A stretch of 54,017 nucleotides of DNA. Origin: Verrucomicrobiota bacterium (GTDB taxonomy: Bacteria > Verrucomicrobiota > Verrucomicrobiia > Opitutales > UBA953). Position numbers and translations under genes: made by a program. Shown here in pieces: positions 2,513-46,257 of this stretch. Under the pieces are notes generated by a model. The model searched no databases. It had not been told where the DNA came from and was given only the letters and a program-made list of their open reading frames with translations. The stretch spans positions 1 to 54,017 of the forward strand of contig BJHS01000014.1 of assembly GCA_014193315.1 (NCBI GenBank). Direction: 5' to 3'. Numbering within the stretch: the stretch's first letter is position 1; each line of letters begins with the position of its first letter.

Positions 2513-5333
2513 AGGAGAACTCGTTGGAGTTGAGCAGGACGAGGCAGACCTCCGCGAGGGCGCGGGTGCGGGCATCGACATCGGCCGGTTGCAGGTCGGG
2601 CACGAACTCAGCGTTCGCGTAAAGCTTCTCGTCGAAGGAGAATTTCTCGCCGGTGTTCTCTTCGACCGCGTCGCGTCGGACCACGAGCGGCGGCCGGATG
2701 GCAGCTGGCTTGATGTCGGCCGCCGCCGAAATCATCGCGGCCCAGTGTTCGCGGCAGTTCTCGAGTTCAGCGGCCGTGGGCGACCGCGAGAAGGCGAGGG
2801 TGAAGAGACGGGTGATGGCTTCGGCGTCACCATTCGTCTCCTTGATCGCGCGGTTGGCGAGGGCGAGGGCGCGGGAGCGGGTGCTCTGACCGTTGAACAG
2901 ACTGAAGACCTGGGGGGTGACGTTGGACGATTCACGTTTTTCGCAGGAGAAGTCAGGCATCGGCGCGTTGAATACTTCGAGCTGAGGGTCGGGCTGACCG
3001 CGGGTCTTCAGCGAGTAGATCGACCTCCGGTGGCGCTGCGAGGGGAGGGGGTTGAGTGTCCAGGCTGAGGCGAAGGTTCCCATGACCTGACGAGGCTGTA
3101 GCGCCGCCTCCAGGTTGATCTCGGGACGATTAGGAATGCCGCCGAGCGTAGAATTGAGCTCACCCGTCGCGGTGAGCATCGCATCCCGTAATTCCTCGGC
3201 CGTGAGCCGGCGAGGCTTGAAGACCGCGTAGCTGGTCGCGGTGGGATCCTTCTCCGCGACCAGTTTCCGGTCGGGATGGGTGGCGCTGCGACGATACGTT
3301 TCCGAGTTCATGATGGCCCGGTGCAGGGCCTTGAAACTCCAGCCTTTCTCGACGAATGTCGCCGCCAGCCAGTCGAGGAGCTCGGGATGGGTGGGTTTCT
3401 TACCGGTGCTGCCGAAGTTGTTCGGATTGCCGGCGATGGCTTGGTCGAAATGCCAGAGCCAGACCCGGTTCACGATGGCACGGGTGGTGAGCGGGTTCTC
3501 GGGGCTGGCTACCCATTCGGCGAAGGCCTTGCGGCGGCCTTCGATGGTTTCCGGAATCGGAGTCTTCTGCACCTCGCCCAGTACGCTGAGTACCCCGGGC
3601 TTAACTTTTTCGCCGGACCCCAAGGGGTCTCCGCCCGTGAGGATGCAGGACGCCTCTAGTTCCCCTTCGGTCAGGTGATTGTTCGGCCTGCGGAAGGGAG
3701 CGTAGATGGATGTCACCTGCGGTGTGCGGCCGTCGTAGACGGTGAGCGCCACCGGCTCATAGCGGTCGAGCTCCCACTCCAGGCGCTCGAGTCCTTTCCG
3801 CGCGACTCGATCGATGCCGAATTGTTCCGGGGTGAAGCCGACCAATTTCGGAGGATAGTCGCTCTCAGGCATTCCCTGGTCTTTGACCCGATCACGCACA
3901 CGCGTGAAAACGTCGGCGAAGCCGAACTTATTCTTGGCTGACGACTTGCCGATGACTTCGGCCGCGGCCACCCATTTGGTGACGTCTTTCTTGTTCTCCT
4001 TATGCCAGACCAGGGCGTTCCGGAGAAGGACATCGTCCAGGATCCCCAACTGTTTGAGGTGATCAGCGCGGCTGAGTTCGAGGAATTTCTTTTCTTCGAA
4101 TCCCTGCTTGTTCTCTTCGTCCAAGAAGGGCGCAGCCCGTTCGCTTAGCTGGGTCGTGGCGAACACGGCCTGGAGCGAGTAGTAGTCCTTAGTCGGAATG
4201 GGGTCGAACTTATGATCGTGACAGCGGGCGCACTGCAAGGAGTGGGCGAGGAAGGTCTCGCCTACGCTATTGCTCACGTCGTCAAGGAAGCGCTGTCGGG
4301 CGATCTTCGGCACCTCCATCCCCGTCAGCTCCCATGGGCCCATGCGCAAGAAGCCCGCCGCGATGACCATCTCCGGGTTGTCTGGCTGGATCTCGTCGCC
4401 CGCGATCTGCTCGCGGATGAACTGATCGTAGCGCTTATCCGCGTTGAAGGAACGCACCACGTAATCCCGATAACGCCAGGCGTTCCCTCGCTCGTAATCA
4501 TTGGAGAAGCCGGAGGAATCGGCGTAGCGGGTCACGTCGAGCCAGTGCTGGGCCATGCGCTCTCCGTAGTGCGGGGACGCCAGCAGCCGGTCGACCAGGG
4601 CGGCGAAGGCCTCGGCCTCTGGCCGAGGGTCCTTGACGAAAGCCGCTACTTCTTCCGGCTTAGGGGGCAGGCCAAGCAGGTCGAACGTCGCGCGGCGGAT
4701 CAAGGTGACGCGGTCGGCAGCCGGGGCGACCGCGAGTCCGGCCGGCATCTTCCCCATGATGAAAGCGTCGACGGGGTTACCTTGGCTCGCGAGAAGCGCA
4801 GGTTTCTGGACGGGCTGATAAGCCCACATGTCCTCGGGCTTGTATTTTCGGTTGGTCCATTCGGGAGACAGGCCGCCGGAGGTCTTCATGATCGTGCCGT
4901 CTTCCGCCGACCACTTGGCTTCGTTCGCCTTAGCGATAGCCTGGGCGCGTGAGGCCTCCGGCCAAGGCGCGCCGCCGGCGATCCATTCCTTGATCCATGA
5001 CACCTGTTTTTCGTAAAGCTTGTCCGCTTCTTTCGGCGGCATCGCCTCCCAGTCTTCGTGCGTGCGGGTGACCGCCAGATAGAGCGGGCTTTCCTCCGGC
5101 TTACCGGAGACGAAGCCGGGTAGCTTACTGTCGCCGCCTTTAAGGGTCGAGGCCGCCGTCCTCATGTCCAGTCCGCCCTTGATCTTCGCCGCGTCCTTCC
5201 CGTGACAAGCGAGGCACTTCTCATGGAAGAGCGGGTTGATGCGTCGGACGAACAGCAGTTCAGCATCCGGGTTCTGGGCCATCGCAGGTAATGCGGCGTT
5301 GATACTCAAGAATATGACGCCCAGATGATACAT
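2502..5333 (-). CDS. PSCyt1-DUF1549-DUF1553 protein (PSD1-1)
   Basis: A 943-residue exported protein with a signal peptide ending about LPAMAQ. It has a planctomycete cytochrome-c domain (PSCyt1) with heme motif CLACH at 40-44, a DUF1549 (PSCyt2) region at about 180-390 holding a second heme-type motif CARCH at 368-372 followed by DHKFDPI, and a C-terminal DUF1553 (PSD1) region ending LLNSNEFSYVY. Two CxxCH motifs predict a periplasmic di-heme protein; the reaction is unknown. This copy has no inserted carbohydrate-binding-type domain, making it the shortest of the four in the window. It directly precedes and overlaps DUF1501-1. Confidence 0.92.
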   Translation of the reverse strand: MYHLGVIFLSINAALPAMAQNPDAELLFVRRINPLFHEKCLACHGKDAAKIKGGLDMRTAASTLKGGDSKLPGFVSGKPEESPLYLAVTRTHEDWEAMPPKEADKLYEKQVSWIKEWIAGGAPWPEASRAQAIAKANEAKWSAEDGTIMKTSGGLSPEWTNRKYKPEDMWAYQPVQKPALLASQGNPVDAFIMGKMPAGLAVAPAADRVTLIRRATFDLLGLPPKPEEVAAFVKDPRPEAEAFAALVDRLLASPHYGERMAQHWLDVTRYADSSGFSNDYERGNAWRYRDYVVRSFNADKRYDQFIREQIAGDEIQPDNPEMVIAAGFLRMGPWELTGMEVPKIARQRFLDDVSNSVGETFLAHSLQCARCHDHKFDPIPTKDYYSLQAVFATTQLSERAAPFLDEENKQGFEEKKFLELSRADHLKQLGILDDVLLRNALVWHKENKKDVTKWVAAAEVIGKSSAKNKFGFADVFTRVRDRVKDQGMPESDYPPKLVGFTPEQFGIDRVARKGLERLEWELDRYEPVALTVYDGRTPQVTSIYAPFRRPNNHLTEGELEASCILTGGDPLGSGEKVKPGVLSVLGEVQKTPIPETIEGRRKAFAEWVASPENPLTTRAIVNRVWLWHFDQAIAGNPNNFGSTGKKPTHPELLDWLAATFVEKGWSFKALHRAIMNSETYRRSATHPDRKLVAEKDPTATSYAVFKPRRLTAEELRDAMLTATGELNSTLGGIPNRPEINLEAALQPRQVMGTFASAWTLNPLPSQRHRRSIYSLKTRGQPDPQLEVFNAPMPDFSCEKRESSNVTPQVFSLFNGQSTRSRALALANRAIKETNGDAEAITRLFTLAFSRSPTAAELENCREHWAAMISAAADIKPAAIRPPLVVRRDAVEENTGEKFSFDEKLYANAEFVPDLQPADVDARTRALAEVCLVLLNSNEFSYVY

Positions 5334-5351
5334 CGGAATGAGAGTGTGACT

Positions 5352-5611
5352 CTAGGCCAGGGTCCAGCCGCCGTCAACCATCAGCACCTCGCCGGTGATG
5401 AGGATGGAATCAGGATGGCTGAGGAAGCGGACGGCGTGGGCGATGTCATGGATGCTACCGACGCGGCCGACAGGGATGCGTGAAAGCTCGGATTGACGGA
5501 ACTCGGCTTTTCGAGGTGAGGGCGGGTTCCCGGGGTCATGAGGTAGGTGGGGGCCACGGCGTTGACGGTGATGCCCAGCAGAGCCCACTCGAGGGCCATG
5601 CTCTTCGTCAG
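5352..5611 (-). pseudogene. Short-chain dehydrogenase remnant, frameshifted
   Basis: Only the C-terminal third of an SDR oxidoreductase remains, split over two frames. The first holds LTKSMALEWALLGITVNAVA, the classic SDR segment after the catalytic Tyr-Lys; the second holds RIPVGRVGSIHDIAHAVRFL and ends ITGEVLMVDGGWTLA. The frame changes near 5500-5520, around a short A run on the coding strand. The Rossmann glycine motif and catalytic YxxxK are missing, and the left part is replaced by transposase sequence, so no active enzyme is possible. It ends 18 bp upstream of the PSD1-1 start. Confidence 0.85.
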
Positions 5612-5710
5612 TATGTTCAGCTCCTTGCAGATTTCGGCCTGGCTCCGGCCGGATTCGTAGTCACGGATGGCCTTGATCTGGGCCTCCTTCGTGTGCCGTT
5701 TCTTGCTCAT
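5612..5710 (-). mobile_element. IS3-type transposase OrfA N-terminal fragment
   Basis: The ATG at 5710 starts MSKKRHTKEAQIKAIRDYES followed by GRSQAEICKELNI, the typical opening of the helix-turn-helix OrfA of IS3-family elements. After about 33 residues the frame passes straight into SDR sequence, with no OrfB and no recognisable partner end. This is a leftover of an insertion followed by deletion. A CCCC-containing stretch at 5773-5783 might be part of an old terminal repeat, but I cannot show a pair. Confidence 0.7.
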
Positions 5711-5792
5711 GTTTGTCTCGTTTATGGGGGTGGTTTGGTGGTTGGGCAACCCCCCGAGTAACATTTCAACTGGCCCCATTTAGCGTGACCCG

Positions 5793-5816
5793 ATCAAGTT
5801 CGCATCTCAACTTGAT
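5793..5816. promoter_or_regulatory. Inverted repeat upstream of the -35 box
   Basis: A perfect palindrome ATCAAGTT-N8-AACTTGAT lies just upstream of, and touching, the TTGACG box. An 8-bp arm with 8-bp spacer fits a dimeric transcription factor site for the gene starting at 5861. Its centre is about 40 bp from the centre of the second palindrome. The regulator is not identifiable here. Confidence 0.5.
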
Positions 5817-5844
5817 TGACGGCCTCTTTCATCGTGAGTATCAT
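5816..5844 (+). promoter_or_regulatory. Sigma-70-like promoter
   Basis: TTGACG (5816-5821), a 17-bp spacer and TATCAT (5839-5844) match the housekeeping consensus at five of six positions in each box. Transcription would start near 5851, giving a leader of roughly 10 nt before ATG 5861, which explains why no Shine-Dalgarno sequence is visible. Confidence 0.6.
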
Positions 5845-5852
5845 AAATACTC
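5836..5852. promoter_or_regulatory. Operator-like palindrome over the -10 box
   Basis: GAGTAT-CATAA-ATACTC is a perfect 6-bp inverted repeat covering the -10 box and the expected transcription start. A protein bound here would block RNA polymerase, so repression is the simplest reading. Confidence 0.5.
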
Positions 5853-5860
5853 AAAACTGT

Positions 5861-7744
5861 ATGAAGCCGACACCCCCTTCTGGCTATGCCCGCAGCCTTA
5901 GCCTGATGGCCCTGATCGGCGTCAGCTGCCTCGGTTCGGTGCAAGCCGCGCCGCCTCCCGCCGCCTTCGGGGTGTGGGACCGTGGTTCCTCTTTCGACCC
6001 GAAAGATTATCCCTTCCTGAAAGGCCTGGCCTTCAATCAGAAATGGGCGGACGTGGAAAAGAAGCCGGGTGTCTTTGACTGGAGTGCTTTGGACGATGCC
6101 ATGGATGCGGCGGACAAGAGGGGTCAGTACATCTACCTTTCCTTGGGCGTCGGGCCGGATGCGCCCGATTGGATCTATGGCCAGGGAGTTCCTCGCGTGG
6201 AGTGCAAGGATCAGAAGTTCGACGCTTGGCCTGCTTACCCCTTTTATCCTTCAAAGGAGTACAAGGCTCTCTTGGAGAGGCTGACCGCCGCATTCGGTAA
6301 GCGCATCCGCAGCTACACCCCGGAGAAGCAGGCGCGTATCGCGTTCATCCAGGTCAAGACCGGGTGCACGGGAGACGAATGCGCTTACAAGGGTAGTGTC
6401 ATCGAGAAGAAGTACGATTTGCCGACGAAATCCTCCGCCTGGCGCGAGTTCCGGTTATGGCAGTTTGATCTTTTCACGAAGACTTTTCAGGGCGTTCCTG
6501 GCCAGCCTCGGATCTCCCTCATGTTCAATAACGTGACCTCGGACGATGACGAGAGTGGTGGCAAAGGATTTGATGAAGAATGGAAGTGGGTGACGGAAAA
6601 CGTCACCGGGGGTATCGCCATCAAGCTTGCGGGTAGCGCCCGCGGGCATCACTTGAGCGGTGAGAGGACGATGATCGAAGCGTGGCAACACCGGTTGATC
6701 GCCTCGGAGGCCGCGCCTTTGTTCGCTCGGTCGGAAATGGACCAGACCTGGCAGCGCGCCATGTTCGCCCAGAACCTGCCGATGAGCTTCTACTGGGGCG
6801 CCCTGACCGGCCTGCAGAACGGACAGAGCGTCTGGGACATCACCTCCGGGGCGCTGGAGTCCTGCAAGGAGATGGGGTTCGACTACTCCTTCTATTTCTT
6901 CAACCGCTACGCCGGCCAGATTGACCCCCGGACGGCCACGGGCGCCTTTTGCGCCCTCCACAAGGGGTTGGATGCCGCCGATACCAAGGCCTATCCGGAG
7001 GCGAAGTTTGGCAAGGCCTCGCACAAAAACACCGAGCGCATGGAGAAGATCGTCGCCACCTATGCCAAGTACGGCGCGGCCGTAGATGATAAGAACGGGC
7101 TGACGCTGGGGCAGGTGCGGCAACGCGACACGCAGACCGGATTTAACGACGTAGGCTGGGATATCTGGCCGGAAAACTATGGCCGGTTCCTTTATCAGAT
7201 CGACGCCGATGCCACTTCGATTCCGCTCTGGCGCGTGGGCGGCCCGATCACCAACAAGTCTCCCATCTATTCGCGTTTCGCCCGCGGCTTCGAGCATGCC
7301 ACTGGCAAGGACTCCCTTTACTTCAAGCTGCACGACGGCTTCTCCCAGGGCTCCGCCCCGAAGGTCATGACGATGACCGTCGTCTGGTATGATGCGAAGG
7401 CAGGCTCGACCTGGAAGCTGGATTACGATGCGGGGAAGCCATCCATGAAGACGGCGCTGACGGTGACGGGCACGGGCGACAAGCAGTGGCACCATGAGAC
7501 CGTCACGGTAACGGACGCGGTGCTACGTCAGGGAGGCGCGAAGGGTTCGGATTTCGCCCTCGTGAACACGGATGCCGCCGACGATATCTTCAGCCTCATT
7601 GAGATTCAACGGGGCAAGCCGACGGCGCCGGTGATGCTGCCGCCGACTCATTTCAAGGTGTTAGACAAGGCGCCGAAGCCCCCCAAGGCGGATAAGCCAG
7701 AGAAGGGTGAGAGCCCCAGGGAGCGGAAGAAGGACAAGAAGTGA
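5861..7744 (+). CDS. Secreted glycoside-hydrolase-like TIM-barrel protein
   Basis: A 627-residue protein from ATG 5861 (MKPTPPSGYARS); the longer frame from 5816 would begin inside the promoter. A signal peptide runs to about SVQA. The following region, AFNQKWADVEKKPGVFDW and then GPDAPDWIYGQG, has the look of the first strands of clan-A barrels such as GH42 or GH5-like enzymes, but I cannot assign a family or name the two catalytic acids. The last 150 residues look beta-rich (TMTVVWYDAKAGSTWKLDY), perhaps a binding domain, and the C-terminus is a Lys/Pro-rich tail. It is the only plus-strand gene beside the large minus-strand degradation block and converges on the EF-hand sulfatase, leaving a 41-bp gap. 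Confidence 0.65.
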   Translation: MKPTPPSGYARSLSLMALIGVSCLGSVQAAPPPAAFGVWDRGSSFDPKDYPFLKGLAFNQKWADVEKKPGVFDWSALDDAMDAADKRGQYIYLSLGVGPDAPDWIYGQGVPRVECKDQKFDAWPAYPFYPSKEYKALLERLTAAFGKRIRSYTPEKQARIAFIQVKTGCTGDECAYKGSVIEKKYDLPTKSSAWREFRLWQFDLFTKTFQGVPGQPRISLMFNNVTSDDDESGGKGFDEEWKWVTENVTGGIAIKLAGSARGHHLSGERTMIEAWQHRLIASEAAPLFARSEMDQTWQRAMFAQNLPMSFYWGALTGLQNGQSVWDITSGALESCKEMGFDYSFYFFNRYAGQIDPRTATGAFCALHKGLDAADTKAYPEAKFGKASHKNTERMEKIVATYAKYGAAVDDKNGLTLGQVRQRDTQTGFNDVGWDIWPENYGRFLYQIDADATSIPLWRVGGPITNKSPIYSRFARGFEHATGKDSLYFKLHDGFSQGSAPKVMTMTVVWYDAKAGSTWKLDYDAGKPSMKTALTVTGTGDKQWHHETVTVTDAVLRQGGAKGSDFALVNTDAADDIFSLIEIQRGKPTAPVMLPPTHFKVLDKAPKPPKADKPEKGESPRERKKDKK

Positions 7745-38475: not shown

Positions 38476-39228
38476 TCAGGGGGTTCCCCAGGCTTTTTTC
38501 AGCACGGCCACCATGGCCGGGTCATGCGCTTCGAGTTCCTTCCGGTTGTAGGGGAAGAAGTCGTTCTGCCCGAAGAAAGCTTCGGTGGTCTCCGAGAAAT
38601 ATTCCATCGGGGTGGTCATCGCGTAGGCCTTGACACCCTCGGTGATCCTGCCCTGCCAGTTCTTACGGCTGACGTTATCGTAAGATTTGTTGGCGACCGC
38701 TTGGTCGTAGCAGGCCTTGATTTCCGGGTGGTTGAAGCCGAGCACCTGATCGTGGTAGGCATGGGCGAGTTCATGCAGGGTGAGCAGGGGCATGCGCAGC
38801 ACTTCCTTGTCGAGGTTGGCGACGCCGGAGAATTCGACGCCTTTGACCATGGCGGGATTGCGGCCGTTCTGCTTGAGCCAGCCGGCGCCCGGGTGATACT
38901 CGGCACCGGCGCCTTTACCGTAAGGAGGTGAAAGCCACAGGGTCACCTTCTTCATCTGGGCGACCGCTTTGGCCGGCACAAGGCGCTCGACGTCCTCAAG
39001 CTGCTTGCCGATCAGCACGAGCCCTCGCTCGGTCTCGGCCCTCTTTTCGTCGGTGAGGAGTTCGAGGCGAATCATGACCGACCAGCCACGAAGTATCCGC
39101 GACTCGTAGCGCAAGGGCAGGGGCGCCGCAGCCTCCGAGCTGGCAGAGGGCTTGGCAGGGGCGGTCTCGGCGGCCGTAAGGCAGGTCACCAGGGTCAGCC
39201 AGAGGGCGGGGCGGAGCAAACGGGGCAT
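38476..39228 (-). CDS. Exported HExxH metallopeptidase-like protein
   Basis: A 250-residue protein from ATG 39228, with signal peptide LLRPALWLTLVTCLTAAE. HELAH at 152-156 followed by AYHDQ is a zincin-type site, and EYFSETTEAFFG about 60 residues later supplies a likely third ligand. RYESRILRGWSVMIRLELL marks a family seen in Planctomycetes and Verrucomicrobia; its substrates are unknown. A run of nine G on the coding strand (39230-39238) lies immediately before the ATG and may serve as ribosome-binding sequence; the frame stays open upstream to 39273. Confidence 0.8.
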   Translation of the reverse strand: MPRLLRPALWLTLVTCLTAAETAPAKPSASSEAAAPLPLRYESRILRGWSVMIRLELLTDEKRAETERGLVLIGKQLEDVERLVPAKAVAQMKKVTLWLSPPYGKGAGAEYHPGAGWLKQNGRNPAMVKGVEFSGVANLDKEVLRMPLLTLHELAHAYHDQVLGFNHPEIKACYDQAVANKSYDNVSRKNWQGRITEGVKAYAMTTPMEYFSETTEAFFGQNDFFPYNRKELEAHDPAMVAVLKKAWGTP

Positions 39229-39252
39229 ACCCCCCCCCTTATCAGGGGCGAC

Positions 39253-39377
39253 CTGAGGTCTAGCAAGCCTCAACCTTCGCCGCTGGGGTCGTAGAGGCCT
39301 TGCCGGACGACATAGCGGATGACGCCCGCGACATCGTGGACCCCCAGCTTGCGCATGAGGTTGGTGCGGTGGTTCTC
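39253..39377 (-). repeat. Direct repeat, copy 1 (3' end of a LuxR-type gene)
   Basis: This 125-bp block matches 41330-41454 with two mismatches, the last 104 bp being identical. It covers the C-terminal HTH codons, the stop and a small hairpin TGAGG(T/C)-CTAGCAA-(G)CCTCA just after the stop. Beyond 39377 the two copies fall quickly to clearly lower similarity. Confidence 0.85.
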
Positions 39378-39635
39378 GGCTGTCTTGGTGCGGATATTGA
39401 GCTTAGCAGCCGCTTCCTTGCCGGTGTGGCTCTTGGCGAGCAGGACGGCGATCTCGCGCTCGCGCGGAGTCAGCAGGTCGATCATCGGGTCGGCATGGGT
39501 GCCGGGTTTAGCCAAGGCGTCACGCACGGACTTGCTGAAATGATTGTTAAACCACGTGTTCCCCTCGGCGATGAAGCCTAGGGCGAGCAGGGTTGCGAGG
39601 ACGGTGGTGCGAAATTGGCGGAACGCGATTTTCAA
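39270..39635 (-). CDS. LuxR-type HTH protein lacking a receiver domain
   Basis: About 121 residues. From residue 24 on it matches the second half of the two response regulators at 41347 and 42145: NTWFNNHFSKSVRDALAKP then LTPREREIAVLLAKSHTGKE and KTAENHRTNLMRKLGVHD. The receiver domain is missing. The only start is TTG 39635 with a stop 15 bp upstream in frame, and the first 20 residues are hydrophobic and unrelated. It is probably a truncated duplicate; if expressed it would be a bare DNA-binding domain able to compete for sites of its full-length paralogues. Confidence 0.6.
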   Translation of the reverse strand: MKIAFRQFRTTVLATLLALGFIAEGNTWFNNHFSKSVRDALAKPGTHADPMIDLLTPREREIAVLLAKSHTGKEAAAKLNIRTKTAENHRTNLMRKLGVHDVAGVIRYVVRQGLYDPSGEG

Positions 39636-39653
39636 AGCATCGTGCTGTTCCTA

Positions 39654-41309
39654 TCACTTGCCGAGGCGGTTTGGCGTGTCGCCACCTCTGGCAACGTTCA
39701 AAAGATCGCCCAGCGGGTCGTTGTGTGCATCGAAAGCGGTGAGCACTGCTTTTCCCCTGCTGTTGGCGATGACGCGAAGGCGCGCCTTGGATGTGGTTTG
39801 CGGGACGATGGTGCAAACGAATTCGCCGCCGACGCCCCGGCCATTGAAGCAACTCTTCCACTGCGACTTTTGGTCATCCCAGGTTTCGATGATGTAGCGC
39901 GAGATGCCGGAGGCCGGGTCTTCTCTAAGTTTGAATTCGTTGATGGAAACGGGGCGTCCGAAATCGAGCATAAATGCAGGGACCGTCGCGCCGGCAGCAG
40001 CGGCAATCTCGGTCATCTTGGCGGGATGTTTCGGCGAACTGCAGGCAGCGCCGAGATTTTTGACGAAGCAGTCCTTGAAGGTGGAGCGCTTGTCTTTTTC
40101 GCGATCCATCACAGCCATGATGCCCTCGCCTTTGGAGAGGTAGAATCGGCATTTGTTCCAGGTAGCCTCGGTCCAGTCGGTGGTGTTGATGATAGCTGCG
40201 CGGACGCGCGGCTGCAGGGGGCGCTTGGATTTCGCGTTAATGACGCAGTTTTCCATGACGATGCCCATGTTGGGATGCCCATCCGACGCATAGCAGCAGA
40301 GGAGGAAGCCGGGGCCGTCGGTATCGTGGAAGTTACAATTGCGCATAATCATGTTGTCGCAATTACCCTCGAAGTCGAAAGCCTCGCCATCGCCGCTACC
40401 AAGGCCGATGTCCACGAAGCCCCACTCGCTATCCTCGAAAATCCAGTCTTTGCAACGGAAGAACATCGCTCCTGCCACACCGTTGAAGGAGCGGAAGCCG
40501 CGACCAACATCGTGCGTGACGCAGTTTTTTACGGAGCCCTTGATCACGCCACGGATGCCGAGCTGCCACTGGTAGCCTTCTTCAAAGAGGCAGTTTTCAA
40601 AATTCAGGTTGGCGAAGTTGTAAACGAAGGATGCGTTCTTGTTGAAGTTGTCGGGACTGTTCGTCCAGAAGCCGGATGCCAGTCTACGGAAGACACAGTT
40701 TTTCACCATGATGTCCTGCATGACGATTTTCTTGTCGGTTTCCCACGAGAAGAGGCAGACGCCGAGGCCGATCTTGCGCTTCGGGTAGTCCTCGTAGCGC
40801 CCGTAAAGCAGCGAGTCACGGAAGTAGCAGTCTTCAATCCAAAGGTATTTCTGGGTCGGAGCGCCTTTGGCGTATTCGGCGTAGATGCCGGTCATGCAGC
40901 GGGCGAATTCGATGCCCACGATCTTGTAGCCGCCTTTGTTGTCGAGGCGGATACCGGTGCGGTCCTGCTTGAAATCCTCGCGGTCGATGAGGGGCTTATT
41001 GCCCTGCCCATAGGAACCGATTAGGATCGGCTTCTCGGGTGTGCCACTACCTTTCGGGGTGAATTCTTCGTTCCAAGTGTCGCCCTTTTTGAGAAGGATG
41101 CTGTCGCCGGCCTTATATTCGATGGAGGCTTTGGTGAGCGTTTTCCAAGGGCCTTTCGCTCCCGCCTTGGCGGCGGCGAGTCCGTCGAGACTGTCATCAC
41201 CGGTGGACTGGCTGACGTAATAGGTCGCCGCCTTGGCGGTGAATCCGCCGCAAAGCAGGGCGGCTGCGAAGAGGGAAATCTTACAGGTAGCGCGGAAGAA
41301 GCGAAGCAT
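39654..41309 (-). CDS. Secreted right-handed beta-helix protein with discoidin-like tail
   Basis: A 551-residue protein with signal peptide (ISLFAAALLCGGFTAKA). Residues about 25-400 show beta-helix rungs rich in Asn and Cys-containing turns (IVMQDIMVKNCVFRRLASG, NLNFENCLFEEGYQW, DNMIMRNCNFHDTDGPG). The last 120 residues (FMLDFGRPVSINEFKLRED, then YIIETWDDQKSQWKS) resemble a discoidin sandwich. Likely a polysaccharide-binding or lyase-type protein of the cell surface. Its base composition is visibly less GC-rich than neighbours, and it sits between two near-identical HTH gene ends, so it may have arrived by duplication or transfer. Confidence 0.82.
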   Translation of the reverse strand: MLRFFRATCKISLFAAALLCGGFTAKAATYYVSQSTGDDSLDGLAAAKAGAKGPWKTLTKASIEYKAGDSILLKKGDTWNEEFTPKGSGTPEKPILIGSYGQGNKPLIDREDFKQDRTGIRLDNKGGYKIVGIEFARCMTGIYAEYAKGAPTQKYLWIEDCYFRDSLLYGRYEDYPKRKIGLGVCLFSWETDKKIVMQDIMVKNCVFRRLASGFWTNSPDNFNKNASFVYNFANLNFENCLFEEGYQWQLGIRGVIKGSVKNCVTHDVGRGFRSFNGVAGAMFFRCKDWIFEDSEWGFVDIGLGSGDGEAFDFEGNCDNMIMRNCNFHDTDGPGFLLCCYASDGHPNMGIVMENCVINAKSKRPLQPRVRAAIINTTDWTEATWNKCRFYLSKGEGIMAVMDREKDKRSTFKDCFVKNLGAACSSPKHPAKMTEIAAAAGATVPAFMLDFGRPVSINEFKLREDPASGISRYIIETWDDQKSQWKSCFNGRGVGGEFVCTIVPQTTSKARLRVIANSRGKAVLTAFDAHNDPLGDLLNVARGGDTPNRLGK

Positions 41310-41329
41310 GCCCTACGCCTAGAGGCCCC

Positions 41330-41454
41330 CTGAGGCCTAGCAAGCCTCAGCCTTCGCCGCTGGGGTCGTAGAGGCCTTGCCGGACGACATAGCGGATGAC
41401 GCCCGCGACATCGTGGACCCCCAGCTTGCGCATGAGGTTGGTGCGGTGGTTCTC
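41330..41454 (-). repeat. Direct repeat, copy 2 (3' end of a response-regulator gene)
   Basis: Partner of 39253-39377, including the hairpin TGAGGC-CTAGCAA-GCCTCA at 41331-41349 which overlaps the TGA stop. No U-rich tract follows on the minus strand, so a classical terminator is not supported. Confidence 0.85.
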
Positions 41455-42027
41455 CGCTGTCTTTGTGCTGATGTTGAGTTTAGCCGCCACTTCCTTGCTG
41501 GTATGGCTCTTGGCCAGCAGCACGGCGATCTCGCGTTCGCGGTCGGTCAGGTTGATCCCCATCTGGTCTACCCGGGTCTCGGGGCTGTTCAGCGCCTCGA
41601 CGAGGGCGCGGTTATACACTTCGCTGAACCAGGGCTCGCCCTCGGAAATGGCATCCATCGCTTTGCGGAGTTCGGAGAGCGGCGCGGACTTATTGACGAA
41701 ACCAAGCACGCCTTCTTTCAGGAGGCCGCGGGCAAGTTGCTTTTCGGATTTACCGGAGAAGACCAGGACGCGCAATTCCGGGAGCGTGTTGCGGAGGCGA
41801 TGCAAGACTTCGATGCCCGAGATGCCGGGCAGAAGGATATCCAAGATCAGGATATCCGGTTTGAGCGTGAGGGCGAGTTCGACCCCTTCGGCGCCATCCG
41901 CCGTCGAGCCGATGACTTTGAATTTACCTCGACCTTCGAGCATCTCGGTGACGAGTTCCCGGATGGCGGTTTGGTCTTCGATGATGACCACGCTCTTGGT
42001 CTTCTGGGCCGGGGCTTTCATTTGCAT
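41347..42027 (-). CDS. NarL/FixJ-type response regulator
   Basis: A 226-residue two-component response regulator. The receiver begins SVVIIEDQTAIRE (acidic pair Glu17-Asp18), the phospho-acceptor is Asp63 in ILDILLPGISG, and VFSGKSEKQ holds the conserved Ser and Lys positions. The LuxR-type HTH spans about 160-205 (LTDREREIAVLLAKSHTSKE, KTAENHRTNLMRKLGV). No histidine kinase is nearby. It lies next to a second, older paralogue and upstream of the beta-helix gene on the same strand, 37 bp from it. Confidence 0.93.
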   Translation of the reverse strand: MQMKAPAQKTKSVVIIEDQTAIRELVTEMLEGRGKFKVIGSTADGAEGVELALTLKPDILILDILLPGISGIEVLHRLRNTLPELRVLVFSGKSEKQLARGLLKEGVLGFVNKSAPLSELRKAMDAISEGEPWFSEVYNRALVEALNSPETRVDQMGINLTDREREIAVLLAKSHTSKEVAAKLNISTKTAENHRTNLMRKLGVHDVAGVIRYVVRQGLYDPSGEG

Positions 42028-42144: not shown

Positions 42145-42876
42145 TTATTCATTAGTAGGGTCAACCAGACCTTGACGAACGAGGTAACGGACGAGGCCAG
42201 CCACATCCCGCACGCCCAGTTTGCGCATCAGGTTGGAGCGATGGTTTTCCGCGGTCTTGATGCTCAGGCCCAGGCGGCCCGCGACTTCCTTGCTGCTGTG
42301 GCTGAGGCCGATGAGTAAGGCGATTTCGCGTTCGCGCGGCGTCAACTGCTCGATCTGTCGGTCGGTCTGCGCCCGGGGATTGGCCAAGGCTTCGCGAACC
42401 GTCTGCCCGAAGGCGTCATCGAACCAAGTACCCCCGTGGCCGACCCTCTCGACCGCTTGCCGTAAGTCGGCGAACCGTTGTGACTTGTTGACGTAACCGT
42501 GGATGCCTTCCTGGACGAGACTCCGGATCACTTGCGTCTCTTGACGGGCCGAGAAGACGAGTACTTTGGTCCGGTCCGTGGCGCGGCGCAGCCGGCGCAG
42601 GAAATCGATGCCGCTCATTCCCGGCATCTGGATGTCCAGCAGGACGAGGTCCGGTTTCTCCTTGGTCACTAGTTCAAGCCCCTCGCCGCCGGTCGCCACC
42701 GCGCCGACAATGGCATGCCCGCCTTGCCGCCCTAGTAATTCGACCAGCATCTCGCGGATGGCGGCTTGGTCTTCGATGATCGCGAGACGGAGCGGGCGCG
42801 TGGCGGGTGGGTTGGTCGTCGCCGGCTGTAAGGCGAGGGGTCGAGTGACTCGGATTTTAACGCGGCGCGATTTCAT
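42145..42876 (-). CDS. NarL/FixJ-type response regulator, paralogue
   Basis: A 243-residue response regulator with a 28-residue basic/Pro-rich N-terminal extension before LAIIEDQAAIREMLVELLG. The phospho-acceptor is Asp81 in VLLDIQMPGMSG; the HTH region is LTPREREIALLIGLSHSSKE and KTAENHRSNLMRKLGVRD. It is clearly related to the 41347 gene but more diverged in DNA. The 117-bp gap to its neighbour is unusually A/T-rich and holds the palindrome ATCTTT-TT-AAAGAT (42126-42139); it probably contains the promoter of the second regulator. Divergent from the cassette protein gene. Confidence 0.93.
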   Translation of the reverse strand: MKSRRVKIRVTRPLALQPATTNPPATRPLRLAIIEDQAAIREMLVELLGRQGGHAIVGAVATGGEGLELVTKEKPDLVLLDIQMPGMSGIDFLRRLRRATDRTKVLVFSARQETQVIRSLVQEGIHGYVNKSQRFADLRQAVERVGHGGTWFDDAFGQTVREALANPRAQTDRQIEQLTPREREIALLIGLSHSSKEVAGRLGLSIKTAENHRSNLMRKLGVRDVAGLVRYLVRQGLVDPTNE

Positions 42877-42948: not shown

Positions 42949-45480
42949 ATGAGAAGCTCCCGTGCCTTTGCTTTGCTCGCTGTCCTCTTTCTTTTAAGCG
43001 GCTTGGGCGCCCTCTGTTGCTTGGTTTGTCTTGGGCTGCCGCCCTCGCGTGCGGAGGTCACCGCGGCGCAGTCGCGGCAGCGACTACACCGCGATGCCTT
43101 CGCCCTTCTCCAGCTCGCCCAAGCGGAGGTGCAGCAATGGGCGGGAGCGGATACCGTCGCCACCTCGATGGACGATGGGGCGATGCGGGTTGCCCGGTCC
43201 AGCGCGGCGGGGCTCGAGACGTTTCGCCTCGCGGGTGATCGCGTGGTGGATGGCGTCCGCTGGTCGTGGCATTGTGAGGATATCTCATGTCGCTTTGACC
43301 TAGCGGGGGCGGCCGCCACGGCGGTCCAGTCATCCCGTTGGGCCCGGAGTCAAGTCGGGCGGCAGGCTATGGCCTCGGGGGAGGCGGCCGCTCCCGCTTC
43401 GCCCGCGGCTAAACTGGCCTGGCAGATGGACGACGTGGGGTTCTATCGCGCCGCCATCGGTCGGGCGAACGTTGCCGGGACGGACTGGGGCGGGCGGGGA
43501 TTACTGACGGACCCTGTGCGTGGGGGCTGGCGACGGGACTTGGCTTCCGCGGAGGTTCTCTCCGCCCTGGTTGGTCCAGAAGTGGCCGATGCTTTCAAGG
43601 TGGCTGATTTGCGGGAGGAGCGGGGGCTGGGGCTGGGGTTCTCCGTGGCTCGGGGACCTGCGGGCCAATTCCGACACTTGGCGCATGTCGCCGACCTTCG
43701 GCTGAGCTTCGGGGTCTTCAACGCACGTTCCGATGGTCGGCATCGGTTCCGCTTCCATGTCTCCGGGCTTCTTTGGAATCCCGCCTCGGCCCCCTTGCTC
43801 GCCGATTCTTCCGGTCAGCTTTACCTCCTCGAGGTGGTGGGCGCGCCAGAGATCACCGTTCGCAACTTGGATTCCGGCGCCGTGCTCTCGACTTGGCTGG
43901 ATGCCTGTCCCGTCGCCGATTTTGGGATCTTCAATCAATACCCACGCGAGGCTGGCTTATGGTCTTGGTGTGAGGTGGAAGATGTGGCGCGCTACGGGAT
44001 GGCCCGTCGGGGCTTGTTGCCTGGCGAGGCCTACGCCTTCCTCAGTCCGTCGCCCGCGGTCCAGCCGCAAGGTCTCTCGCGCGTCCTTGGTCGCGAAACC
44101 TGGCGATTGGAGTCGGTGGTGCATGGGCCGGGCTGGAAGCGGCCTTCGCCTCAGGTCTTCCTTCCGACGGATCGCATCGAGATCACTTGTCGTTTCCTTG
44201 CACCGATGTCTTTCCGCTTCCGGCCCGCGGCGGGAGAGCCTGCTCGGGAAAAGCCCATCGCGGATTACCCTTCGCCGGTCGTGCATGAGATCGCCCAGGT
44301 TTGGTTCCCGGATTTTCGGCTCGAAGTCAGTGGGCGGGATTATTCGCGCGAGGACAGCGGAGGGTATACCATCGAGGAGCGACGGGCGTGCCTCCGGGTT
44401 TCGTGGGTACCCCGCGGCGTCGGGCAGCTGACCCATGCCGTGCGTTCGACCGAACTGCTTCGGACGCATTGGGATCTGTCCCGGCCAGAGGAGGCGGCGC
44501 AGTGGGTCGTGGGTGCGCCTTTGGCGGCTTCGCTGCTTCCCTTGGACTGGGCGGGGGCGTCCGGGGTCGGTGCTTTGCAGGATACGACGATCAACCAGCA
44601 TCTGGCGAACACCCCGGGGGCTTATGCTGACCTTAGGCTTACTCCCTTACCAGGGTGGCCGTTGCCTTCGGTCGGTGCCTTGCGGCATCTGGGGGGCGCG
44701 ATGGACTGGGCCCGACTCGATGACAGTTTTAATTCGGCCCCCCTCAAGGTTGCCGAGCCGGGGAGTTGGTCGGAGAACCCTCGCCTGACGCCTTGGGCGA
44801 CCGCGACGCCCGTGGTCGCGGCCGACTGGTCGGTGAGTGGGCCGTTCAACGTCAATAGCACCGACCCGGATGCTTGGTGGGAACTTTTGCGAAGCTCGGG
44901 CTCGCCATGGCAGGTGCAAGCGGGCGGTCCCTTTCCAGGGTCGCCGTGGCACCGCCCGTTTTTCCCGACCCATCCGGCGGGCGCCCAGTTGGCGGCCTGG
45001 GCTGCCCGTGCGAGCCCCCAGTGGGTCGACGAGGCGCTGGTGGGATTGGCTGGGGTCGAGCTGGCCGAGGCCGCGGCGCGCCAGGGACTTCGGCTGCCGA
45101 CCGATGCCGCCATGGGGGAGTTGGCACGCCAAGTGGTGCGTTTGGGTCCCGAGTGCGGCGCCCCTTTCCGTTCGCTCGAGGCCTTCGCCCGTTCGGGCTT
45201 ATTGGATAAGGCGTTGGCGGCATCGCGGTTCAACGAGTTCGCTCCGGCGGGAGAGGACGTGGCACCGATGCTCGTGCGCGGTGCGGACTTGCTGGAGTTA
45301 TGGGCGCCTTTCCTGACCGTCCGTGGGGATACGGTCCGCGTGGTGGGGCAAGTGTCCTTTCAAGATCCCCGCACCCCTGGGTCGCTGCGAGTGGAGGCGG
45401 TCTTGCAACGTCAACCGGAGTCACATGAAGTTCGGCGTTTTGGGCGGCGTTGGCGGGTAATTCGGGTGCGCCTTTTATAA
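42949..45480 (+). CDS. Verru_Chthon cassette protein A-like protein
   Basis: An 843-residue protein beginning with a prepilin-like hydrophobic segment (RAFALLAVLFLLSGLGALCC) and then a helical stretch RLHRDAFALLQLAQAEVQQW, as in type IV pilin and GspK-like minor pilins. Later EIAQVWFPDFRLEVSG and GPFNVNSTDPDAWWELL match the character of the Verru_Chthon cassette protein A family, found in Verrucomicrobia as part of four-gene pilin-like cassettes; it is somewhat short for that family. Proteins B, C and D are not adjacent: the next gene is Bax-inhibitor-1-like. Possible part of a pseudopilus or envelope structure. Confidence 0.65.
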   Translation: MRSSRAFALLAVLFLLSGLGALCCLVCLGLPPSRAEVTAAQSRQRLHRDAFALLQLAQAEVQQWAGADTVATSMDDGAMRVARSSAAGLETFRLAGDRVVDGVRWSWHCEDISCRFDLAGAAATAVQSSRWARSQVGRQAMASGEAAAPASPAAKLAWQMDDVGFYRAAIGRANVAGTDWGGRGLLTDPVRGGWRRDLASAEVLSALVGPEVADAFKVADLREERGLGLGFSVARGPAGQFRHLAHVADLRLSFGVFNARSDGRHRFRFHVSGLLWNPASAPLLADSSGQLYLLEVVGAPEITVRNLDSGAVLSTWLDACPVADFGIFNQYPREAGLWSWCEVEDVARYGMARRGLLPGEAYAFLSPSPAVQPQGLSRVLGRETWRLESVVHGPGWKRPSPQVFLPTDRIEITCRFLAPMSFRFRPAAGEPAREKPIADYPSPVVHEIAQVWFPDFRLEVSGRDYSREDSGGYTIEERRACLRVSWVPRGVGQLTHAVRSTELLRTHWDLSRPEEAAQWVVGAPLAASLLPLDWAGASGVGALQDTTINQHLANTPGAYADLRLTPLPGWPLPSVGALRHLGGAMDWARLDDSFNSAPLKVAEPGSWSENPRLTPWATATPVVAADWSVSGPFNVNSTDPDAWWELLRSSGSPWQVQAGGPFPGSPWHRPFFPTHPAGAQLAAWAARASPQWVDEALVGLAGVELAEAAARQGLRLPTDAAMGELARQVVRLGPECGAPFRSLEAFARSGLLDKALAASRFNEFAPAGEDVAPMLVRGADLLELWAPFLTVRGDTVRVVGQVSFQDPRTPGSLRVEAVLQRQPESHEVRRFGRRWRVIRVRLL

Positions 45481-45537: not shown

Positions 45538-46257
45538 ATGGAATCCAACCCGTTCATCGTCTCCCAGGCGCCGGCCTCCGATCGCGTCGCCTTCTTCAAG
45601 CGCACCTACCTGCATGTGGCGGGCGCCTTCGCCGCCTTTGGCGCGCTGCTCTACGCGTTCTTCGTGACCGACGTCGCCCGATCCATCATGCAGGGTTTCG
45701 GCTCCATCATGAGCTCCATGGGTGGGTTTGGCATCCTGGTCGTCATGCTGATGTTCTGGGGTGGTACCTACGTCGCCCAGAAGTTGGCCGAGAACCGGGC
45801 CTCCCGTCAGTCCCAGTACCTCGGTCTTGGTCTCTACGTCGTGCTCCAAGCCATCATCTTCGTGCCCCTGATCTTGATGGTCGCCATCAAGACCGGCGGT
45901 AATCCCGGCGAGGTTCTCATCCCGGCCTGCGCCGTCACCGCCGCCTTGGTCGTCGGCCTGACTGTCGCCGTCTTCACGATGGGCATCGACTTCTCCTTCC
46001 TGCGCGTGGCCATCGTCATCGGCAGCGTCTGCACCCTCGGCATCATCCTCGTGGCCGCCTTCACCGATAGCCAGCTGGGTAACTGGTTTTCGATCATCAT
46101 GATCCTGCTGATGGCCACGGTCATTCTCTACCAGACCCAGGTGATCAAAGACAGCTGCCAGACCGACCAGCACGTCCTGGCCGCCTTCATCCTCTTCTCG
46201 GCCTTCGTCACGCTCCTCTTTTACGTCATCCGTCTCTTCGCCGGCCGTCGCGACTGA
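45538..46257 (+). CDS. Bax inhibitor-1/YccA-like membrane protein
   Basis: A 239-residue integral membrane protein with about seven hydrophobic segments. The N-terminal FFKRTYLHVAGAFAAFGAL and the later GIDFSFLRVAIVIGSV fit the BI-1/TMBIM family (YccA, YbhL), and the conserved C-terminal Asp pair region is seen in YQTQVIKDSCQTDQH. Bacterial members act as pH-sensitive calcium leak channels or interact with FtsH; the role here is inferred from the family. A TTGACT sequence at 45503-45508 could be a -35 box, but no convincing -10 follows. Confidence 0.88.
   Translation: MESNPFIVSQAPASDRVAFFKRTYLHVAGAFAAFGALLYAFFVTDVARSIMQGFGSIMSSMGGFGILVVMLMFWGGTYVAQKLAENRASRQSQYLGLGLYVVLQAIIFVPLILMVAIKTGGNPGEVLIPACAVTAALVVGLTVAVFTMGIDFSFLRVAIVIGSVCTLGIILVAAFTDSQLGNWFSIIMILLMATVILYQTQVIKDSCQTDQHVLAAFILFSAFVTLLFYVIRLFAGRRD

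Follow-up and report, generated by a model that had tools for sequence, protein, structure and literature searches.

The 54,017-nucleotide stretch analyzed here (the window; contig BJHS01000014.1 of assembly GCA_014193315.1) forms contig 14 of a genome (label G000) that measures 2.36 Mb, is 97% complete, and comes from a largely uncultured genus of freshwater (lake) Verrucomicrobiota. On its minus strand, it carries the gene order R1, R2, BH, R3, M90, in which R1 and R2 are a pair of response regulators, BH is a beta-helix gene, R3 is a receiver-less frame, and M90 is a peptidase-like gene (Table 1). It is highly probable that BH entered this genus as a foreign gene, that its insertion duplicated the end of R2, that a hydrolase gene accompanying it was trimmed, and that the resulting cassette spread among congeners by homologous recombination.

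Origin of the beta-helix gene

At E<=1e-30, a search of 79 family genomes returned BH in 6, each of them a member of this genus, on seven contigs: G000, G021:C1, and G014 (which ends in BH), here called clade A, as well as G021:C7, G023, G032, and G088 (which ends in R3), here called clade B. A BH signature pattern (<=2 mismatches) occurs once per carrier genome and twice in G021, and was absent from G082 and G020 with two mismatches allowed. Between the two clades, synonymous divergence (dS) of BH is 0.12-0.22, compared to 0.94-1.45 for R2, 1.11-1.77 for R1, 1.22-1.98 for M90, and 1.94-2.32 for rluA; for G000 against clade B, the corresponding ranges are 0.16-0.19 for BH and 0.94-2.32 for R1, R2, M90, rluA, and bax. 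Gene coordinates for the divergence tests were set by hand from matches, with some genes partial (M90 in G032 and G023, 210 codons; maf and aldE), and maf, aldE, tonB, rlu (rluA), gspK, bax, est, mt, and pecA were named by eye, without a family search. Judged by a ratio of nonsynonymous to synonymous divergence of 0.10-0.19 in the carrier pairs listed, BH is under purifying selection.

Outside the genus, three further genomes of the order (G054, G047, and G046) encode more distant BH relatives. A single scan of a genome collection returned relatives at 38 loci, almost all of which carry a Verrucomicrobiota or Planctomycetota label. No relative came up in one scan of viral contigs, and carriage of BH by a phage was rejected as an explanation. 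The closest relative outside the genus (L077, 89% amino acid identity, dS to the carriers 0.28-0.35) comes from a metagenome-assembled genome (MAG) labelled Prosthecobacter, a label of another class; it may be wrong, because the neighboring open reading frames (ORFs) are common to L083 and L104, which are labelled Spartobacteria and Chthoniobacteraceae. In a tree of 29 of the 38 loci together with the seven carrier copies (left out were L072-L076 and L079, the carriers themselves, as well as L099, L105, and L109), the carrier copies form a supported clade adjoining L077. Furthermore, at 3 of the 10 non-genus loci with neighbors listed (L077, L083, and L104), the gene behind BH codes for a hydrolase, of the same family in all three cases and identified by Pfam as GDSL in L077 and L104. 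By divergence and by phylogeny, these comparisons show BH to be foreign to its host genus. The less GC-rich beta-helix gene between the two repeat copies that the original prediction had described was confirmed: BH has 57% GC compared to 63% in the surrounding 14 kb, and matches the Pfam family Beta_helix.

Two further observations concern BH relatives elsewhere. An Akkermansiaceae MAG contig (L103) holds two genes of the BH family about 2 kb apart (515-2068 and 4265-5917). In L104 (10586-14376), the BH-hydrolase pair is followed by ORFs that by eye resemble a secreted protein, an oxidoreductase, and a transporter, so that the pair possibly belongs to a larger utilisation locus.

Empty sites and target duplication

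Within the genus, 47 of 55 genomes have R2-type genes, and 55 stretches around such matches were retrieved, 23 of which lack a match to BH, M90, or rluA and are therefore uninformative about the interval between R2 and rluA. In the 29 stretches holding rluA, this interval contains M90 alone (11), BH-R3-M90 (5), a gene for an FAD oxidoreductase (6), or only 3-9 bp (7); adding G033, whose stretch ends short of rluA, brings the genomes with M90 alone to 12. These 12 congeners (G033, G020, G009, G017, G026, G025, G029, G001, G019, G005, G082, and G086) have R1, R2, and M90 without BH, with R2 and M90 adjacent, and all five carrier contigs that reach M90 have BH and R3 between the two genes. The FAD-dependent oxidoreductase (about 537 amino acids; e.g., L121:6339-7952 and L124:2768-4384), which replaces M90 in six congeners and was assigned to Pfam FAD_oxidored in the two of the six that were run, is an alternative cassette at the same site.

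The cassette-bearing G021:C1 was also compared to the empty site of G082: on the R2 side, 2432 bp align at 99.2% identity, and on the M90 side, 2371 bp align at 98.2%, with R2 and M90 themselves 99.6% identical each. About 243 bp of G082, beginning near R2 codon 162 and reaching into the first M90 codons, are matched twice in G021:C1, and about 1.83 kb of G021:C1 are unmatched. On alignment, this near-conspecific pair is thus shown to differ by an insert with a duplicated target. The cassette also lies inside a 145-kb contig (G021:C7), which makes an assembly artefact unlikely. Two assemblies, G021 and G088 (stretches L035, L036; L111, L120), each contain two divergent versions of the R1-R2 locus, and these bins probably mix two species.

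The joints of the insert differ between the clades. In clade B, foreign DNA begins about 25 bp upstream of the BH start, at the left joint; in clade A, about 35 bp were lost there, so that an M90-like start is fused to BH. Moreover, in the clade-B carriers, R2 and BH are separated by A-like sequence, and R3 and M90 by B-like sequence.

The original prediction had attributed the arrangement to a duplication that carried BH along. A simple tandem duplication of the regulator of this kind can be ruled out, as BH is missing at the 12 empty sites and its divergence is far below that of its neighbors; BH is foreign, and the duplicated part comprises only the regulator 3' end up to the start of M90. 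The related suggestion that recombination across the repeats could delete BH agrees with the existence of the cassette-free G082 and the cassette-bearing, near-conspecific G021:C1.

The 125-bp repeat

The near-identity of two regulator 3' ends, which had drawn attention to the locus, was reproduced exactly: the two copies (Table 1; offset 2077) span the 3' ends of R2 and R3 plus the segment behind the stop codon and differ over 125 bp at two positions, 39259 and 39273. Similarity then drops sharply upstream, as had been noted, with 29 mismatches in the adjoining 123 bp (39378-39500). The paralogues R1 and R2 differ at 38 positions over 125 bp, so that the identity of the repeat goes beyond ordinary similarity between paralogues. 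A 257-bp repeat query against the 2.36-Mb genome at E<=0.001 returned two matches, both of them these copies. The hairpin reported after the stop held up in part: the post-stop segment does lie inside the repeat and a stem-loop can be drawn there, although its folding is hardly better than that of shuffled sequence (z -1.3 and -0.3). With these values and no T-run seen behind the stem-loop, a terminator hairpin is unsupported.

The mosaic structure of R3

Alignment of the sequence behind BH shows R3 to be a mosaic. In G000, G021:C1, G021:C7, and G032, the sequence following BH aligns to the start of the hydrolase gene of L077, L083, and L104, with G021:C7 retaining hydrolase residues 4-68 at 77% identity and with two stops; the other hydrolase matches in the genus, among the matches listed, reach at most 51% identity and are other paralogues. 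G000, G021:C1, and G032 share the same joint, from the hydrolase start to about 100 bp of R1 linker and then to an R2-type end. G021:C7 has another joint and G023/G088 yet another, giving three kinds of right-hand joint. The linker of the G000 R3 matches the R1 of G032 at 86 of 99 positions, compared to 61 of 99 for its own R1 and 51 of 99 for its own R2, and the G032 linker matches the G032 R1 at 95 of 99. Short motifs are shared at the joints as they now stand, of 10 bp between the L077 hydrolase and R1 in G032 and of 7 bp between the L104 hydrolase and R2 in G021:C7; they may differ from the original joint. R3 therefore looks like an insertion scar composed of a hydrolase 5' end, a foreign R1-type linker, and an R2 3' end. 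It had been described as a regulator copy minus its receiver, a description that has to be given up: its 5' end derives from the signal-peptide part of a GDSL hydrolase, and its linker is of the R1 type of another clade. A truncated R2 copy is likewise ruled out, as the first ~170 bp match the hydrolase 5' end and R1-type linker. A further truncated R2-type match, at G092:C363, was rejected as merely a contig end.

That R3 works as a receiver-less regulator and has been retained to compete with R1 and R2 or to serve as their decoy is very unlikely. In G000, its 121-amino-acid frame is open and the GerE domain intact, but its start is TTG and its 5' codons derive from the hydrolase signal-peptide region. 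The other four of the five copies read through are disrupted: G032 has a stop near the start, G021:C1 lacks a start codon and has a frameshift, G021:C7 has stops and a shortened helix-turn-helix (HTH) region, and G023 has no start region. A conserved receiver-less LuxR-type ORF is thus not what the carriers share, with only one of five R3 copies open.

A probable imported tract in the window genome

We compared the proportion of synonymous differences (pS) between G000 and its clade-A relatives G014, G021:C1, and G082. In R2, pS is 0.61-0.63 over codons 1-160, 0.45 over codons 161-191, and 0.12-0.16 over codons 192-226, a drop that is significant in all three comparisons (Fisher p 3.8e-5, 1.6e-5, and 2.6e-6). 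Across 11 genomes (G088, G017, and G086 were left out), giving 55 pairs that share sequences and are thus non-independent, none of the other 52 pairs had a comparable drop, and the two with p<0.05 went in the opposite direction. Low values continue through BH (0.03-0.29 in 40-codon windows against G014 and G021:C1) and into M90 (0.20-0.27 over codons 1-120, followed by 0.42, 0.53, 0.57, and 0.62, against G021:C1 and G082). Beyond this tract, pS is 0.57-0.70 in R1, rluA, tonB, aldE, maf, and gspK, and 0.52-0.54 in est. The tract starts at about R2 codon 192, which corresponds to the repeat edge at 41454, and ends within M90 (codon ~120-160). We read it as one imported block, of which the sharp edge of the 125-bp repeat is probably the left crossover.

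This coincidence of the repeat edge with the left end of the tract also bears on the proposal that gene conversion or a very recent exchange had kept the repeats alike: recent exchange appears to have been involved, and conversion between R2 and R3 is not required in G000. Gene conversion between the repeat copies may nevertheless act across the genus. R3 is 91.1% identical to its own R2 in G000, 93.5% in G021:C1, 94.4% in G032, 95.4% in G023, and 96.2% in G021:C7 (over 104-248 bp). Over the last 105 nucleotides, the G000 R3 is 99% identical to its own R2, 94-96% to three other clade-A R2 genes, and 77-79% to five clade-B R2 genes. In four of the five carriers, the own-genome R2 is the best or joint-best match over this length; the 1-bp deletion in the R3 of G021:C1 spoils the ungapped comparison there, with its own R2 still the best match. 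The contrary case named in the original prediction, the same arrangement with normally diverged repeats, was not encountered, since all five carriers compared show 91-96% identity, although the R3 of G023 is one point closer to the R2 of the empty-site G020 (95%) than to its own (94%).

A fuller alternative, in which conversion within each genome keeps the 3' ends of R2 and R3 alike and the cassette is old and vertically inherited, would account for the likeness of R3 to its own R2 in the carriers compared and for the changes common to both copies in G021:C1. It is quite unlikely: the synonymous divergence of BH between the clades is several-fold below that of R1, R2, M90, and rluA, and at the sites of 12 congeners the cassette is missing. 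Furthermore, the R2 3' end of G000 itself looks imported. Conversion is possibly an addition to lateral spread and not a replacement for it.

Proposed insertion and spread of the cassette

The history that we favor would begin in an ancestor within the genus, in which BH and at least the start of the hydrolase gene, from the likely source lineage, were inserted between R2 and M90. At least one end of the insert must have been joined without homology, and the event would have left a second R2 3' end beyond the insert. Deletions would then have trimmed the hydrolase gene, with an R1-linker patch in one lineage, and produced the fused remnant R3. BH is far more alike between species than its neighbors and therefore appears to have spread by ordinary recombination. 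The cassette would have moved between congeneric species by homologous recombination in conserved flanks, apparently without an integrase, the flanks being the R2 3' end on one side and the R2-type copy plus M90 on the other. In the window genome, about 2.7 kb would have been imported in this way, from R2 codon ~192 to M90 codon ~120-160, with the repeat edge as the left crossover. The order of events, the mechanism of insertion, and the linear or circular form of the donor are what we infer.

The structure of the locus is in line with this history. Both tract edges lie in coding sequence, of R2 and of M90, and no recombinase, integrase, or transposase gene was found among ORFs of at least 90 amino acids in the BH-R3 interval. 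Six inverted pairs of 12-15 nucleotides were found in 39200-41500, none with its arms at the two cassette ends. The cassette thus has neither the enzyme gene nor the terminal inverted repeats of a site-specific integrative element or transposon. The ComEC and DprA families are present in the window genome; because controls, E. coli among them, score for both families as well, their presence does no more than permit natural uptake.

Several observations weigh against this history. Within clade B, BH dS (0.04-0.10) is below that of R2 (0.06-0.22) but not always far from it, and with R1 at 0.04-0.31 and M90 at 0.19-0.46 in the pairs listed, the contrast with BH is weaker. The relatives next-closest to BH after L077, L078 (82%) and L080 (78%), have no hydrolase gene behind BH. 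Outside the imported tract, pS is low in bax (0.26-0.28) and reduced in mt (0.44-0.45), so that divergence is uneven for other reasons too. In the near-conspecific pair, rluA is only 94.7% identical, and the G082 genes beyond it (maf and aldE) match in broken pieces; both repeat copies of G021:C1 also share changes absent from G082, which gene conversion would explain as well. Signals of direction are mixed, with an A-like R2-BH segment in clade B and a B-like R3 linker in clade A, and R2 and R3 do not always track each other, as G088 combines a G032-like R2 with a G023-like R3 start. Finally, the material consists of assembled genomes only, one per species, and assemblies G021 and G088 hold two versions of the locus each.

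The direct repeats that flank BH also invite a circular route, in which RecA-dependent recombination between the R2 and R3 ends excises a circle that re-enters the R2 of another cell by a single crossover. DNA between direct repeats can leave as a circle through recombination of the repeats in translocatable units and unconventional circularizable structures; here, the repeats are the ends of a host regulator, and no circle was observed, although no search aimed at its junction was made. Presence and absence in near-conspecifics with a target matched twice would fit this route, as would the A-like sequence after R2 and the B-like sequence after R3 in clade B, which a single crossover would leave. 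The imported tract of G000, however, reaches into M90, beyond what a BH-R3 circle carries, and we regard the route as rather unlikely.

Features of the locus and neighboring genes

Table 1. Coordinates of features at the R1-M90 locus in the window.
Feature	Coordinates	Strand	Description	Basis or remark
R1	42145..42876	-	Receiver + LuxR-type HTH response regulator, first of tandem pair	Pfam Response_reg + GerE; tandem R1-R2 conserved in genus
R2	41347..42027	-	Receiver + LuxR-type HTH response regulator	Pfam; codons 1 to ~191 probably native, last ~35 probably imported (from pS)
Upstream repeat copy	41330..41454	-	R2 3' end + post-stop segment	2 mismatches vs 39253-39377
R2-BH intergenic segment	41310..41346	-		Related to R2-M90 intergenic segment of empty site G082 (junction table)
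BH	39654..41309	-	Beta-helix protein, 551 aa, signal-peptide-like start	Pfam Beta_helix; horizontally acquired; M90-like start fused to BH
R3	39270..39635	-	TTG start, 121-aa frame	GerE without receiver (Pfam)
R3 part 1	39567..39635	-	GDSL hydrolase 5' end (signal-peptide region), TTG start	Alignment with L077, L083, L104
R3 part 2	39468..39566	-	~99 bp R1-type linker of another clade	86/99 match to G032 R1
R3 part 3	39270..39467	-	R2-type HTH + 3' end	Last 99 nt: 98/99 identical to own R2
Downstream repeat copy	39253..39377	-	125-bp near-identical repeat
M90	38476..39228	-	Zinc-peptidase-like, next gene at empty site	Codons 1 to ~120 inside putative imported tract
Putative imported tract	38750..41454	.	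~2.7 kb: R2 3' end, BH, R3, M90 5' part	Synonymous-divergence profile vs G082, G014, G021:C1

The assignment of M90 relies on a weak, sub-cutoff match to Pfam Peptidase_M90 (21.7 bits vs 26.2). The protein also shows sub-threshold similarity to the zinc-metalloprotease domain family ATLF (16.9 bits vs a cutoff of 27.4), which we read as a shared zincin fold only. At the amino acid level, the long gene upstream of R1 labelled gspK (42949-45480) is 51-59% identical to its clade-A counterparts and about 40-42% identical to those of clade B; with a pS of 0.68-0.70 in addition, it is very fast-evolving. In the bax-inhibitor-like gene (45538-46257), pS to clade A is 0.26-0.28, compared to 0.5-0.7 in most neighbors, which suggests a separate exchange or strong constraint.

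Relation to known systems and implications

In its location and in the variety of its cassettes, the locus fits the definition of the minimal mobile element (MME) of Neisseria (PMC3898611). It lies between two conserved genes, R2 and M90, and holds different whole-gene cassettes, there by strain and here between species of a freshwater Verrucomicrobiota genus, together with one near-conspecific case of BH presence and absence. What sets the present locus apart is that the 3' end of one flanking gene stands duplicated on both sides of the BH cassette, which otherwise works in the manner of an MME. A second likeness is to homology-facilitated illegitimate recombination and displaced 3' genes, as in the arrays of type VI secretion system effector-immunity genes and in Rhs loci, in which foreign DNA inserts beside a conserved gene, leaves older pieces behind it, and spreads by homologous recombination (PMC5361080, PMC3240628). 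At the BH locus, too, an older piece is left behind the insert, but there are no toxin or immunity genes and the piece is a decaying regulator 3' end. Transforming DNA in pneumococcus can produce merodiploids, tandem duplications in which the target is present both intact and with the cassette (PMC3784515); these duplications measure about 100-900 kb, compared to a few hundred bp for the surviving duplicate here. A literature search of partial coverage, with few subscription papers, found no report on this locus, on BH transfer in Verrucomicrobiota, or on the general arrangement, and a search of partial coverage on short-patch illegitimate recombination found nothing on point.

The processes involved are thus known ones, and the locus represents a real and well-resolved case in a little-studied group, unusual in its duplicated host-gene ends as portable homology arms. 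The resolved pieces comprise a likely source lineage, an empty site, a measured target duplication, three right-hand joints, a mosaic scar, and crossover edges. Two cautions follow: what looks like a "receiver-less regulator" next to a complete one may be the scar of an insertion, and where near-identity between paralogues ends sharply, the edge does not have to point to gene conversion but can be the crossover of imported DNA.

As a more far-reaching and doubtful possibility, an accidental insertion with duplication of a conserved host gene's 3' end may make a self-arming mobile cassette of any cargo, which could then leave cleanly, circularise, and re-enter other species again and again without a recombinase gene, the duplicated ends serving as portable homology arms that every congener has. 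If this were true, the widespread tails of paralogous regulators would be a common docking site for cargo. The locus itself provides a natural example of how a single gene may enter and spread in uncultured bacteria without a mobile-element gene.

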